Shown here in pieces: positions 40,959-45,282 of a stretch of 64,000 nucleotides of DNA. A program made the translations under genes and the position numbers. This stretch comes from Phycisphaera sp. Its GTDB lineage: Bacteria; Planctomycetota; Phycisphaerae; Phycisphaerales; Phycisphaeraceae. The DNA lies in the NCBI GenBank assembly GCA_016125215.1, contig WGMF01000029.1, positions 1 through 64,000 on the forward strand. The letters run 5' to 3'. Every line of letters begins with the position of its first letter. The stretch's first letter is position 1. The notes beneath the pieces are model-generated. The model had not been told where the DNA came from and did no database searches. It saw nothing but the letters and a program-made list of their open reading frames with translations.

Positions 40959-41840
40959 ATGTTTGATCGATTGATGGTCCGTTACGTCCACGGCGGCGCG
41001 GTGACCTACCCGCCGGGTGCGACGTTCGGCCCGAGAAAACTCGGCGATTACGAGCTGGTCTGGATCATCGAGGGCCAGGTGGTTTACCATGCCGACGGCG
41101 AGGACTACCCCTGTCCCCCCGGCTCGATGGTGATGGCCAGGCCGGGCTTTCACGACGGCTTCACCTGGGACCCCAAGCGCCCGACACGGCACGCGTATTT
41201 TCATTTCAACACGGACGCCATCCCCGAAGACTGGCCCCCGCCCAACGATTGGCCCATCGTCCGCACCATGCCCGACGACGACATCGTTCGGCCGCTCTTC
41301 CGTTACATCCTGCGTTACTGTCGAACCGTGACACCCCACACCCCCACGCCCCTTGAGCCGATGCTCGTGCGCGCTATCGAGACCCTCATCGGCGCGTTCG
41401 TGACCGGCCCGGTCAGCCAGGCGTGGGAGCACGACCGCGCGTACCCCGAACCGGTGCTCAAGGCCGTGCGCTTCATGCAACAGAGCCTGCGCAAAGACGC
41501 CGCCAACCAGGTCCACCTCGAAGACATCGCGTCGGCCGCGTCGGTCAGCGGCGAGCACCTGTGCCGTCTGTTCCGTGCGACATTCGACACCGGCCCGATG
41601 GAGGCCTACCGCTCGATGCGCCTCGACCTGGCGATGGGGTTGCTGGCGAGGTCGAACCTGAACATCGAACAGATCGCCTACCGCACGGGCTTTGCCAGCC
41701 CGTACCATTTTTCGAGGCGCTTCCGCCAGGCCTACGGCCAGCCGCCGACCACGATGCGCAAAAAAATCGCCGAGGGCGTTTCACCCCCAAGCATCCCCCT
41801 GATCCGCAAGATGCCGGTGGTCAGGGAGCAGGGGGTTTAA
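40959..41840 (+). CDS. AraC family transcriptional regulator
   Basis: This 293-residue protein has an N-terminal cupin-like sensor (YELVWIIEGQVVYHADGEDY, PPGSMVMARPG) and a C-terminal AraC/XylS DNA-binding domain with two helix-turn-helix motifs (LEDIASAASVSGEHLCRLF and IEQIAYRTGFASPYHFSRRF). Ligand and targets are unknown; planctomycete members often respond to sugars. Start is uncertain: ATG 40959 or GTG 40941. It transcribes away from yidC. The stop overlaps the 3' end of the HepT-like gene by 4 bases on the opposite strand. Confidence 0.88.
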   Translation: MFDRLMVRYVHGGAVTYPPGATFGPRKLGDYELVWIIEGQVVYHADGEDYPCPPGSMVMARPGFHDGFTWDPKRPTRHAYFHFNTDAIPEDWPPPNDWPIVRTMPDDDIVRPLFRYILRYCRTVTPHTPTPLEPMLVRAIETLIGAFVTGPVSQAWEHDRAYPEPVLKAVRFMQQSLRKDAANQVHLEDIASAASVSGEHLCRLFRATFDTGPMEAYRSMRLDLAMGLLARSNLNIEQIAYRTGFASPYHFSRRFRQAYGQPPTTMRKKIAEGVSPPSIPLIRKMPVVREQGV

Positions 41841-42193
41841 GATTTTGAGTGACGATCTTGTTTGATCAGCCATGTGTGTAACGCCGCCACAAGGGGGGGT
41901 AGATCGTCGGTGACCACAGCCCATACCAGGTCCACGTCGATCACGAAATACACGTGAACAAGTTGATGACGCATGCCGACGATCTGCTTCCAAGGCACTT
42001 CGGGGAGTTGTTCGCGGGTAACCGGAGTGATGTGCGATGCCGCCTCACCGATGACCTCGATGCATTGGAACACGGCTCGTTGAACCATGTCATTGGAGCG
42101 AAATGCGTGGCTGTCCATGTCACGACAGTAGCGCAAAGCCGCTTCCGCGGCATCGATCATGTGCAAGAAACGGGTGCGGTCATCAAGCGGCAT
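41837..42193 (-). CDS. HepT-like ribonuclease toxin (HEPN, DUF86)
   Basis: This 118-residue protein has the HEPN RX4HXY motif as RHQLVHVY (about residues 78-85) and the typical start DDRTRFLHMIDAAEAALRYC. It is the toxin half of an MNT/HEPN toxin-antitoxin pair; HepT toxins cut RNA and are silenced by AMPylation on the motif tyrosine by MntA. The upstream MntA-like gene overlaps its start by 11 bases, giving translational coupling with antitoxin first. Confidence 0.88.
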   Translation of the reverse strand: MPLDDRTRFLHMIDAAEAALRYCRDMDSHAFRSNDMVQRAVFQCIEVIGEAASHITPVTREQLPEVPWKQIVGMRHQLVHVYFVIDVDLVWAVVTDDLPPLVAALHTWLIKQDRHSKS

Positions 42194-42488
42194 ATAGTAG
42201 CTCCGCTTGAGCGATCACTTCATCTCTAAAGTAAGGGCTCAGCCCCGCTGGCGTGCGGATATCCACCTGCCGACCGAGTTTCTCGGTCAGTTCGTAGACC
42301 ATCCCACCCACATCGAAGAGCGAAACACGCGCTTCTGGTTCGAACTCCACAAGCATATCGATATCACTCTCCGGCCCGAAGCGGTCGGTCAGCACCGAAC
42401 CGAACAGCGACAGCTTCTTGATGTGATGCCGTTCGCAGAACTCCGCGATCATGTCGGGGTCGAGTTGGATTTTCGCACGTCTTCGCAT
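42183..42488 (-). CDS. MntA-like nucleotidyltransferase antitoxin
   Basis: This 101-residue protein has the minimal nucleotidyltransferase signature GSx10DxD, as LFGSVLTDRFGPESDIDMLVEF. It would AMPylate the HepT toxin. The last part (GRQVDIRTPAGLSPYFRDEV) fits MNT antitoxins. It starts 25 bases from the 3' end of leuA on the same strand and is probably transcribed separately or as a leuA tail gene. Confidence 0.88.
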   Translation of the reverse strand: MRRRAKIQLDPDMIAEFCERHHIKKLSLFGSVLTDRFGPESDIDMLVEFEPEARVSLFDVGGMVYELTEKLGRQVDIRTPAGLSPYFRDEVIAQAELLYAA

Positions 42489-42513: not shown

Positions 42514-44112
42514 CTAAACTCCTTCACGTTGTTCCATCGTCGTCGCCGCGACGGTCTTGGCTTCGCTCGTGCGGATGCGGTTGATGGCGGCGAGGTAGGC
42601 ACGGGCGGCGGCTTCGATGACGTCGGTCGAAACGCCCCGGCCGCGGACCTTGCGGTCGTGGTGGCGGACCTGCACCGTCGCTTCGCCCTGCGCATCTTTG
42701 CCACCCGTGACGGCGCGGGACTGGTAATCCTCGAGTGTGACGGTCACGCCGGTGATGCGGCCGATGGCGGAATAGACGGCGTCGATGGGACCGTCGCCCG
42801 TCGCGGCGTCGGTGCGTTCTTCACCGGACGAATCGCGCAGGACGACCGTGGCGGTGGCGATCAGGCCGGTGCCGCTGCTCACCTGGAAGCGGACGAGTTC
42901 CCAGAGTTGTCTCGCGCTGTCGAGTTGCTGGTCCAGGATCGCTTCGATGTCTTCGTCGTAGACATCTTTCTTTTTGTCAGCCAGCGCCTTGAAGGCCTCG
43001 AAGGCCTTGTCGAGCGTGGCGTCGTCGAGGGTGTAACCCAGCGTGGCGGCGCGTTCACGGAAGGCGTGTCGGCCCGAGTGCTTGCCGAGCACGAGCTTGG
43101 TTTCGGGCACACCGACCTCACGCGGGTCCATGATCTCGTAGGTGCGGGCGTTCTTGAGCATGCCGTCCTGGTGGATGCCCGACTCGTGGGCGAAGGCGTT
43201 CTCGCCGACGATGGCCTTGTTGCGTTGCACCGCCAGGCCCGTGAGGTGGCTGACCATGCGCGAGACGGGGTAGATTTTTTTCGACTGGATCGCGGTGTCG
43301 AAGCGGTTGAAATAATCCTTGCGTGTGCGGATGGCCATGACGATCTCTTCGAGCGCGGCATTGCCCGCGCGTTCGCCGATGCCGTTGATGGTGCACTCGA
43401 CCTGCCTCGCGCCGTTCTCGACGGCCGCGAGCGAGTTGGCCACCGCCAGGCCCAGGTCGTTGTGGCAATGGGCCGACAGGACGATCTTGCCCCCCGAAGC
43501 GTCGATGATCGGCAGCTTCTGGCGGACGTGCTTGAAGATGTAACCGTACTCCGCGGGCACAGCGTAACCCACCGTGTCGGGGATGTTGATCGTCGTCGCG
43601 CCGGCTTCGATCACCGCCGCGGTGATCTCGACGAGCACCTCCAGCTCGGTGCGTGAGCCGTCTTCGGGGCTGAACTCGACGTCGTCGGTGTATTGCCGTG
43701 CCTGCTGGACGCTCTGGACCGAGAGCTTGACGATCTCGTCGACGGCTTTGCGGAGCTTGTGTTCGCGGTGGATCTTGCTCGTCGCGCAGAAGACGTGGAT
43801 GCGGTTGCCGGTCGTGCCCTTGATCGCTTCGCCTGCGCGATCGATGTCGCGCGGGACGCACCGTGCCAGGCCGGCGATGACGGGGCGCTGCAGTTCGTTG
43901 GCCATGCGCTTGACGGACTCGAAGTCGCCGACGCTGGTGATGGGGAATCCGCCCTCGATGATGTCCACACCCATCGCGTCGAGCTGCCGTGCGATCTCGA
44001 TTTTTTCTTCGAGGTTGAGCGTCGCGCCGGGCGACTGTTCGCCGTCGCGCAGCGTGGTGTCGAAGATGCGGACGTGTGTGGTGTTTGAATTTTTGGAAGG
44101 TTGGTCATTCAT
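42514..44112 (-). CDS. leuA: 2-isopropylmalate synthase
   Basis: This 532-residue enzyme condenses acetyl-CoA with 2-oxoisovalerate, the first committed step of leucine synthesis. The HMGL-like catalytic barrel begins [19 protein letters not shown], with [16 protein letters not shown] (HxH metal ligands) and the [19 protein letters not shown] signature. The C-terminal LeuA dimer/regulatory domain (from about residue 380) ends with the [16 protein letters not shown] segment and is intact, so leucine feedback inhibition is likely. The ATG at 44112 is preceded by a probable leader-peptide attenuator (44298-44476). No leuB, leuC or leuD gene is adjacent. Confidence 0.96.
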
Positions 44113-44136
44113 ACGGCACCTGAGGGAGAGAAGGGT

Positions 44137-44279
44137 TTCACGCCAAGCCCGCCAAGAACGCTAGCAGAAGTCGGGATCATGGCTGGGCTGTGGTCAGGGG
44201 TTCCGGTCAATTCAGATCATCAATCATCAATCATCAATTATCAAAGGCTCGATCTTGGCGTCTTGGCGTGCTTGGCGTG
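44137..44279. repeat. Inverted word-repeat (CGCCAAG family) in the leuA leader
   Basis: Left arm TTCACGCCAAGCCCGCCAAG (44137-44156) and right arm CTTGGCGTGCTTGGCGTGAA (44262-44281) are inverted copies. A run of ATCATCAATCATCAATC words lies between (44217-44240). It sits between the attenuator and leuA and would be transcribed when read-through occurs. Confidence 0.8.
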
Positions 44280-44297
44280 AAACTTTGTTGGGATAAC

Positions 44298-44326
44298 AAA
44301 AAAACCCTATCCAACGCTGGACAGGG
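44298..44326 (-). terminator. Attenuator terminator of leuA
   Basis: On the minus strand CCCTGTCCA (44326-44318) and TGGATAGGG (44313-44305) form a nine-position stem with one mismatch around a four-base loop, followed by seven T (44304-44298). It lies between the leader peptide stop and leuA. The 10-base segment 44326-44317 can alternatively pair with 44367-44358 (CTGGATAGGG with CCCTGTCCAG, one G-U), giving an antiterminator that overlaps the leader stop codon. Confidence 0.85.
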
Positions 44327-44359
44327 CTTGAGGTTTCAACCGTCGGCTTTTGGCCGGCC

Positions 44360-44440
44360 CTATCCAGCGTGCGCACCAAGAAGAAGCAGCCCGGCGAGCG
44401 GGAGCGTGGCGGCGGCGTGAATGGGCGGAATAATCTGCAT
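44360..44440 (-). CDS. leuA leader peptide (attenuator)
   Basis: This 26-codon reading frame starts MQIIPPIH and carries Leu codons as TLPLAGLLLLG followed by AHAG and a stop. Six of the last 14 residues are Leu, four of them consecutive, just before the stop codon, which itself lies in the 5' arm of the antiterminator (44367-44358). That is the standard layout for ribosome-mediated attenuation: with ample Leu-tRNA the ribosome reaches the stop and covers the antiterminator arm; when starved it stalls on the Leu run and lets the antiterminator form. No Shine-Dalgarno is seen; the promoter spacing suggests a leaderless message. Confidence 0.8.
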   Translation of the reverse strand: MQIIPPIHAAATLPLAGLLLLGAHAG

Positions 44441-44447
44441 GTCGACA

Positions 44448-44476
44448 ACGATAGCTATATGGAACAGGAACGTCAA
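44448..44476 (-). promoter_or_regulatory. Promoter of the leuA leader
   Basis: TTGACG (44476-44471) and TATCGT (44453-44448) are spaced by 17 bases. Transcription would start about seven bases further on, at or next to the ATG of the leader peptide (44440), so the peptide may be translated from a leaderless mRNA. Confidence 0.7.
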
Positions 44477-44562: not shown

Positions 44563-45282
44563 ATGAACACCGCCACAGATATCCAGGTCCGTCCCGCCTC
44601 GTCGCGCGGCCGCACGCAGATCGGCTGGCTCGATAGTTGGCACTCGTTTTCATTCGGCAGGTATTACGACCCGGAAAACACGGGCTTTTCCTGCCTGCGC
44701 GTCATCAACGACGACTACATCAAGCCCGGGGCCGGCTTCGGGGAGCACGGCCACGACAACATGGAGATCATCACCTGGGTCCTGAGCGGCGCGGTGAAGC
44801 ACGGCGACAGCCTCAAGAATCTTCAGACACTCAACGTCGGTGAGGTCCAGGTCATGTCCGCTGGCAGCGGCATCCGCCACAGCGAGTTCAACGCATCGAA
44901 GACCGACGAGCTGCACCTGCTGCAGGTCTGGATCGAGCCCGACCGACAGGGCGTCACCCCACACTATCAACAAAAGCCATTCGACGCTGCGGCGCGGAAA
45001 AATCAGTGGGACACACTGGTGTCACCCGATGGCCGGGGTTCATCGTTGCCCATCCATCAGGACGCGGTCCTGCGTGTGGCTGACCTTGAACCGGGGGCAT
45101 CCGTGAGTGCGGTCAATGCGGTTGGCCGATCGGCGTATGTCCACGTGGCCTTCGGGCAGGTCGAGGCCTCGGGCCAATCCCTGACCGACGGCGACGCGTT
45201 GACGTGGCGTGACGAAGCCGAAACGCTGTTCAAGGCCGCGGCCCGTGCGCAGCTTCTGTGGTTCGATCTCCCCGGGAGGTGA
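44563..45282 (+). CDS. Pirin family protein
   Basis: This 239-residue protein is a two-cupin pirin of the YhaK type. The N-terminal cupin carries the metal-site pattern FGEHGHDNMEIITWVLSG with further His/Glu in GSGIRHSEFN; start DSWHSFSFGRYYDP is typical. Pirins may have quercetin 2,3-dioxygenase activity or redox-sensing roles; here neither is shown. A good Shine-Dalgarno (AAAGGAG) lies 7-8 bases before the ATG. It is divergent from the leuA leader, and the two promoters probably share the 44441-44562 region. Confidence 0.9.
   Translation: MNTATDIQVRPASSRGRTQIGWLDSWHSFSFGRYYDPENTGFSCLRVINDDYIKPGAGFGEHGHDNMEIITWVLSGAVKHGDSLKNLQTLNVGEVQVMSAGSGIRHSEFNASKTDELHLLQVWIEPDRQGVTPHYQQKPFDAAARKNQWDTLVSPDGRGSSLPIHQDAVLRVADLEPGASVSAVNAVGRSAYVHVAFGQVEASGQSLTDGDALTWRDEAETLFKAAARAQLLWFDLPGR

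Follow-up and report, generated by a model that had tools for sequence, protein, structure and literature searches.

The closest described counterparts of the element reported here are the leu and thr leaders of Enterobacteria (Rfam Leu_leader and Thr_leader), in which a short peptide enriched in the regulated amino acid is followed by an antiterminator and a terminator that share one arm, and in which rare Leu codons are used; in Salmonella, leucine sensing by the leu leader employs the rare codon CUA (PMC1183508). In Actinobacteria, peptides with a run of Leu are found upstream of leuA or leuS (leuL1 and leuL2 in Streptomyces lividans; Corynebacterium), and the leu leaders of S. lividans are transcribed leaderless (PMC8079986; PMC5784534). 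No typical terminator is found in the S. lividans leader leuL1, located before leuA, and a LEU pseudoknot element may form in the leuA regions of Actinobacteria (PMC1262725). Likewise, actinobacterial synthetase genes (leuS, thrS, trpS, alaS) follow leader peptides in which the amino acid charged by the synthetase is abundant (PMC8079986). The T-box riboswitches of Firmicutes also place branched-chain biosynthesis and synthetase genes under the control of tRNA charging, but they read the tRNA directly, without a leader peptide. Naville and Gautheret (2010), before their own report from Firmicutes, were aware of leader-peptide systems in Proteobacteria and Actinobacteria only (PMC2965389), and in Korolev (2016) planctomycete leader genes are treated as reinitiation at short distance. 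A preliminary description of the present locus had remarked that no such leader was described for its group; this agrees with the open-access literature, the scope of our comparison, where our searches met no account of leader-peptide attenuation of these genes in Planctomycetota.

In the window, that is, the whole 64,000-nucleotide stretch of Phycisphaera sp. contig WGMF01000029.1 that was analysed, the region upstream of leuA is very probably a classical ribosome-mediated transcription attenuator of this gene (Table 1). It shares the above properties of the enterobacterial leaders, but differs from them in that the leader stop lies within arm 1 and in its predicted leaderless start. With the actinobacterial leuA leaders it has the Leu-run peptide in common, whereas its clear terminator/antiterminator pair sets it apart. 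Neither Leu_leader nor any other Rfam family was matched at the gathering threshold in the window and the loci of 11 relatives, the T-box gave no match in the same set, and the sub-threshold Rfam matches were unrelated and were discarded. The mechanism itself is a classical one; what is notable is the phylum, the exchangeable codons and the predicted leaderless start.

Table 1. Features upstream of and including leuA, in window coordinates
Feature	Coordinates	Strand	Basis or remark
−35 hexamer TTGACG	44471..44476	(-)	sequence
−10 hexamer TATCGT	44448..44453	(-)	ends 7 nt 5′ of the leader ATG
Predicted transcription start	~44441-44440	(-)	inferred from promoter position
Leader peptide frame MQIIPPIHAAATLPLAGLLLLGAHAG*	44360..44440	(-)	ATG to TAG, 26 sense codons
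Four consecutive Leu codons CTG CTT CTT CTT, proposed sensor	44378..44389	(-)	sequence; Leu replaced by Ile/Thr at cimA/ileS/thrS
Antiterminator 5′ arm (arm 1) ACGCTGGATAGGGC, leader stop TAG inside	44357..44370	(-)	complementarity, covariation
Shared arm (arm 2) GCCCTGTCCAGCGT, partner of arm 1 (antiterminator) or arm 3 (terminator)	44314..44327	(-)	
Terminator hairpin AAGCCCTGTCCA-GCGT-TGGATAGGGTTT	44302..44329	(-)	12 pairs, loop of 4; covariation in relatives
T-run of seven closing the terminator	44298..44304	(-)	sequence
Repeat-derived spacer, 149 nt, flanked by 23-nt inverted repeat	44135..44283		outside the attenuator
leuA, 2-isopropylmalate synthase, regulated gene	42514..44112	(-)	NCBIfam

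The identity of leuA was supported by NF002086 (760.7 bits, cut-off 532) and TIGR00973 (723.6 bits, cut-off 598.7). The preliminary description had listed a promoter of TTGACG, 17 bases and TATCGT, a 26-codon frame with GLLLLG just before its stop, an antiterminator arm over that stop, a terminator with seven T and near-identical competing arms. The promoter was found as described and is sigma-70-like, matching at 9/12 positions with an only fair −10 box. The frame and its GLLLLG block were confirmed, but the Leu block is not directly before the stop; its end lies five codons earlier. The antiterminator, originally drawn over 10 positions (44367-44358), turned out to be longer, arm 1 (44370-44357) and arm 2 (44327-44314) being 93% complementary over 14 nt. 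The terminator stem and its T-run were both present, and the competing arms at 44358-44369 and 44305-44316 are indeed 92% alike over 12 nt. The pirin gene next upstream (44563-45282) is divergent from leuA, and the terminator therefore has no preceding gene to end. In a single-sequence fold the minimum free energy of the leader was ordinary, and because z was only −1.16, this fold carries no weight as evidence. Downstream on the minus strand, a nucleotidyltransferase/HepT-like pair (MntA-HepT type toxin-antitoxin, Pfam; 42186-42488 and 41840-42193) begins 26 nt past leuA and might share its transcript, and hence its attenuator.

Conservation was examined at leuA relatives drawn from 61 related genomes and GTDB contigs. 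Short Leu-rich frames were found upstream of leuA at nearly all Phycisphaerales loci and in many other Planctomycetota, for example MMFYASIPALRHSQSLLGLLLLCNLRG at locus L003 and MNQNLLNLSLLLLLPHPSGMA in Rhodopirellula sp. (L061). We scored regions with a detector that demanded a terminator, four or more Leu among the final 15 codons and a duplex between arm 1 and arm 2. It passed 50 of the 95 leuA upstream regions, a set that takes in proteobacterial and other outgroups, against 0 of 950 dinucleotide shuffles, which marks this joint occurrence of parts as unusual. Among Phycisphaerae-like regions, 37 of 44 were called, and on inspection several of the Phycisphaerae misses held the element below threshold. 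The promoter pattern TTGAC-17-TAnnnT was kept upstream of the relatives' leaders, and arm 1 was conserved along with the stop codon it contains, which is TAG in 46 of 55 leaders. Across 32 Phycisphaerales leaders, changes on both sides were observed in 5 of 7 terminator pairs and 6 of 12 antiterminator pairs, counts that take no account of relatedness among the sequences, a limit that also applies to the p-values for codon composition. Both helices exceeded every slid control in paired cells as well as in covariation score. In 15 Planctomycetia leaders the antiterminator was paired in 87% of cells; its covariation in this set was weak, and the slid controls at +1 and +2 had higher covariation scores. 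The preliminary description had made its reading depend on the persistence of the Leu run and stems in relatives and had suggested aligning them for compensatory changes. Run and stems are conserved in Phycisphaerales and many other Planctomycetota, and both helices have changed on both sides with pairing kept. Outside the phylum, a set of Woeseiaceae and other proteobacterial leuA loci (L067, L074, L076, L086, L090, L092, L102, L104, L108 and L109) carried Leu-rich leaders and terminators farther upstream of leuA, probably at the head of the operon.

The most telling result came from other genes. R1, a covariance model built on leuA leaders alone, also matched sites upstream of cimA, ileS, leuS and aspS, in which the leader codons were altered. 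The cimA leader of the window's own genome reads MLPTTHASPIIAIIMTESPTR, and other leaders read MTHAQPTIIAIIISDPDQR at ileS and MTTSPSTFAAGLKLPELLGLLARVG at leuS; at thrS in a related family, the leader MHRPTTTTTTTTATRHRG was accompanied by a core that had drifted more in sequence with its arrangement unchanged. Gene identities were taken from NCBIfam, for which the partial ileS and thrS queries scored under the full-length cut-offs and yet had these as their best families. In contrast to the actinobacterial synthetase leaders, the Phycisphaerae elements at leuA, leuS, cimA and ileS have the common core GG-UAGGG / CCCUG-CC / GGCAGGG-T.

For leuA, cimA, ileS, leuS, thrS and aspS, upstream regions were next collected in a systematic way and searched with a detector that takes no account of amino-acid composition. 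This detector called 25/28 leuA, 28/38 cimA, 11/30 ileS and 9/30 thrS loci, compared with 9 matches in 1,860 dinucleotide shuffles; one aspS, one leuS and one further thrS call were dropped by eye as spurious before composition was computed. The commonest leader residue was the cognate amino acid in nearly every case: Leu in 24 of 25 leaders at leuA, Ile in 26 of 28 at cimA and 11 of 11 at ileS, and Thr in 9 of 9 at thrS. Within the last 18 residues, Leu made up 34% at leuA, Ile 27.5% at cimA and 26% at ileS, and Thr 52.5% at thrS. This natural exchange of codons within one RNA device, in step with the downstream gene, is strong evidence for ribosome-mediated attenuation. Leaders were undetected in these upstream scans at some leuA loci and at most ileS, leuS and aspS loci. 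We rejected leuS and aspS as general targets, since each gave one convincing case in 30 loci, with L233 as a second aspS case. Further target genes suggested by weaker R2 matches (those inspected, at about E = 1e-6 and above) were also rejected, being ordinary terminators or cimA and ileS sites already counted. In the aspS leaders of L227 and L233 (MLTAPTNANRQDHTPQGR and MRYPFGAPGGNGHNNPSPSR), Asn codons outnumber Asp codons, which might mean sensing of Asn-tRNA if this AspS also charges tRNA-Asn.

The preliminary description had also taken the promoter to imply a leaderless mRNA, and as a prediction this has the support of promoter position. The end of the −10 box lies 5-12 nt before the leader ATG at 36 of 37 Phycisphaerales leuA loci, and the same spacing was found at 25/28 cimA, 7/11 ileS and 8/9 thrS loci, against a shuffle background of about 7-11% (7% for leuA). 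Since a −10 box this close to the ATG predicts a leaderless or nearly leaderless transcript, such a transcript is predicted for the window's clade. In other Planctomycetota, outside Phycisphaerales, this spacing occurred at only 1 of 16 leuA loci.

Sequence and comparison show which elements are present, that they are conserved, how the pairings compete, what the geometry is and that the leader codons fit the gene; from these we infer where the transcript actually begins, that the leader is translated, that ribosomes stall on it and that leuA responds to leucine. RNA polymerase would begin on the leader ATG or close beside it, with a ribosome translating the nascent leader. With ample charged Leu-tRNA, the ribosome would reach the TAG within arm 1 and cover this arm, leaving arm 2 free for arm 3, so that the terminator would form and transcription would stop before leuA. 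With scarce Leu-tRNA, the ribosome would stall on the Leu block, arm 1 would be exposed and pair with arm 2, the terminator would not form and leuA would be transcribed. This planctomycete thus probably turns on leuA when ribosomes stall at the leader Leu codons. Equilibrium folds were computed for a ribosome whose assumed footprint hides 12 nt of downstream RNA: arm 1 was wholly free and paired with arm 2 when the A site was at Leu 18-20 and was mostly free at Leu 21, whereas a ribosome at the stop covered arm 1 and the free RNA took the terminator fold. CTT and CTA, both rare Leu codons, account for 47% of the Leu codons in leaders but 10% of those in leuA, which fits the use of rare codons for sensing in Salmonella leu. 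When the window sequence was folded with no ribosome, arm 1 was able to pair with the 5′ part of the leader, a pairing that would favour termination when translation fails; across relatives, the signal for such an upstream protector was modest (0.68 versus 0.57 in shuffles).

We weighed three other explanations against attenuation. The hairpin could instead close a small RNA or act constitutively as an early terminator, in which case the Leu run would be a chance product of a GC-rich frame. The ordinary folding energy of the single leader would fit this, as would the plain terminators with similar stems that are common in these genomes among the low-scoring R2 matches. Against it stand the Leu-rich frames that recur at leuA and end in the antiterminator arm, their Ile and Thr counterparts at cimA, ileS and thrS, an arm 1 conserved together with its mostly TAG stop (46/55), and a Leu-requiring detector that no shuffle passed (0/950), and we regard this explanation as highly improbable. 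Just as improbable in our judgement is a leader that senses leucine but acts through Rho-dependent termination or control of leuA translation. Terminators are often missing from the leuA leaders of Actinobacteria, whose mode of action may differ (PMC1262725; PMC8079986), and two loci of the window's class, L161 and L166, combine Leu-rich frames and a stop-spanning hairpin with no obvious terminator. In the window, by contrast, there is an intrinsic terminator with T7 that covaries in relatives, and the roughly 185 nt that separate it from the leuA start are too many for it to mask the ribosome site.

A somewhat less remote but still unlikely case is that leuA is transcribed mainly from a promoter within the repeat-derived spacer between terminator and gene, by which the attenuator would be bypassed in the window's genome. 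Parts of the spacer gave 56 matches in that genome, so that related sequence stands at many other sites, and a weak promoter-like TTGATA-17-GATGAT occurs at 44244-44216. This site, however, lies inside short tandem repeats and matches at just 9/12 positions, and every part of the attenuator is intact in the window's genome; the spacer looks like a repeat insertion that spared it. The attenuation reading of the preliminary description is supported by the conserved Leu leaders, both arms, their covariation and the swap to Ile and Thr at cimA, ileS and thrS.

Beyond Phycisphaerae, a third model had matches in 81 of 149 Planctomycetia genomes, and the sites inspected there precede leuA or cimA; the leaders are mostly Leu-rich in the first case and mostly contain Ile in the second. 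A sample of the phylum yielded the terminator form at 7 of 28 leuA loci; it was absent at the leuA loci of other groups, in some of which leuA closely follows another gene. We lean, with moderate confidence, towards leader-peptide attenuation being general in Planctomycetota for branched-chain biosynthesis and some aminoacyl-tRNA synthetase genes, with a recurring RNA core, exchangeable codons and, in Phycisphaerales, a leaderless start.

Little is known of how Planctomycetota regulate amino-acid synthesis, and the codon-matched attenuators at leuA, cimA, ileS and thrS offer testable predictions in many genomes while extending leader-peptide attenuation to another phylum. A spatial separation of transcription and translation has been proposed in Planctomycetota (Gemmata). 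General attenuation in planctomycetes, if true, would imply that the two processes are tightly coupled; because attenuation needs a ribosome close behind RNA polymerase, these leaders would provide a genetic test of coupling in these bacteria. The occurrence of leaderless leaders both here and in Actinobacteria raises the question of whether immediate loading of ribosomes at the 5′ end is favoured for attenuation.

Other arrangements were seen upstream of leuA in the phylum. In other families of the window's class, L154, L161 and L166 have short frames whose stop is spanned or adjoined by a hairpin, and no terminator; those of L161 and L166 are Leu-rich, and this type possibly has a different output mechanism. 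L145, L147, L148 and L152 resemble one another in a short non-Leu frame and a GC-rich hairpin, unlike the attenuator. Several members of a single family (L155-L158, L160, L162 and L164) share a motif near TATTGAATGT...CATGTAGTAAAATT, which is perhaps a promoter with a regulator site.
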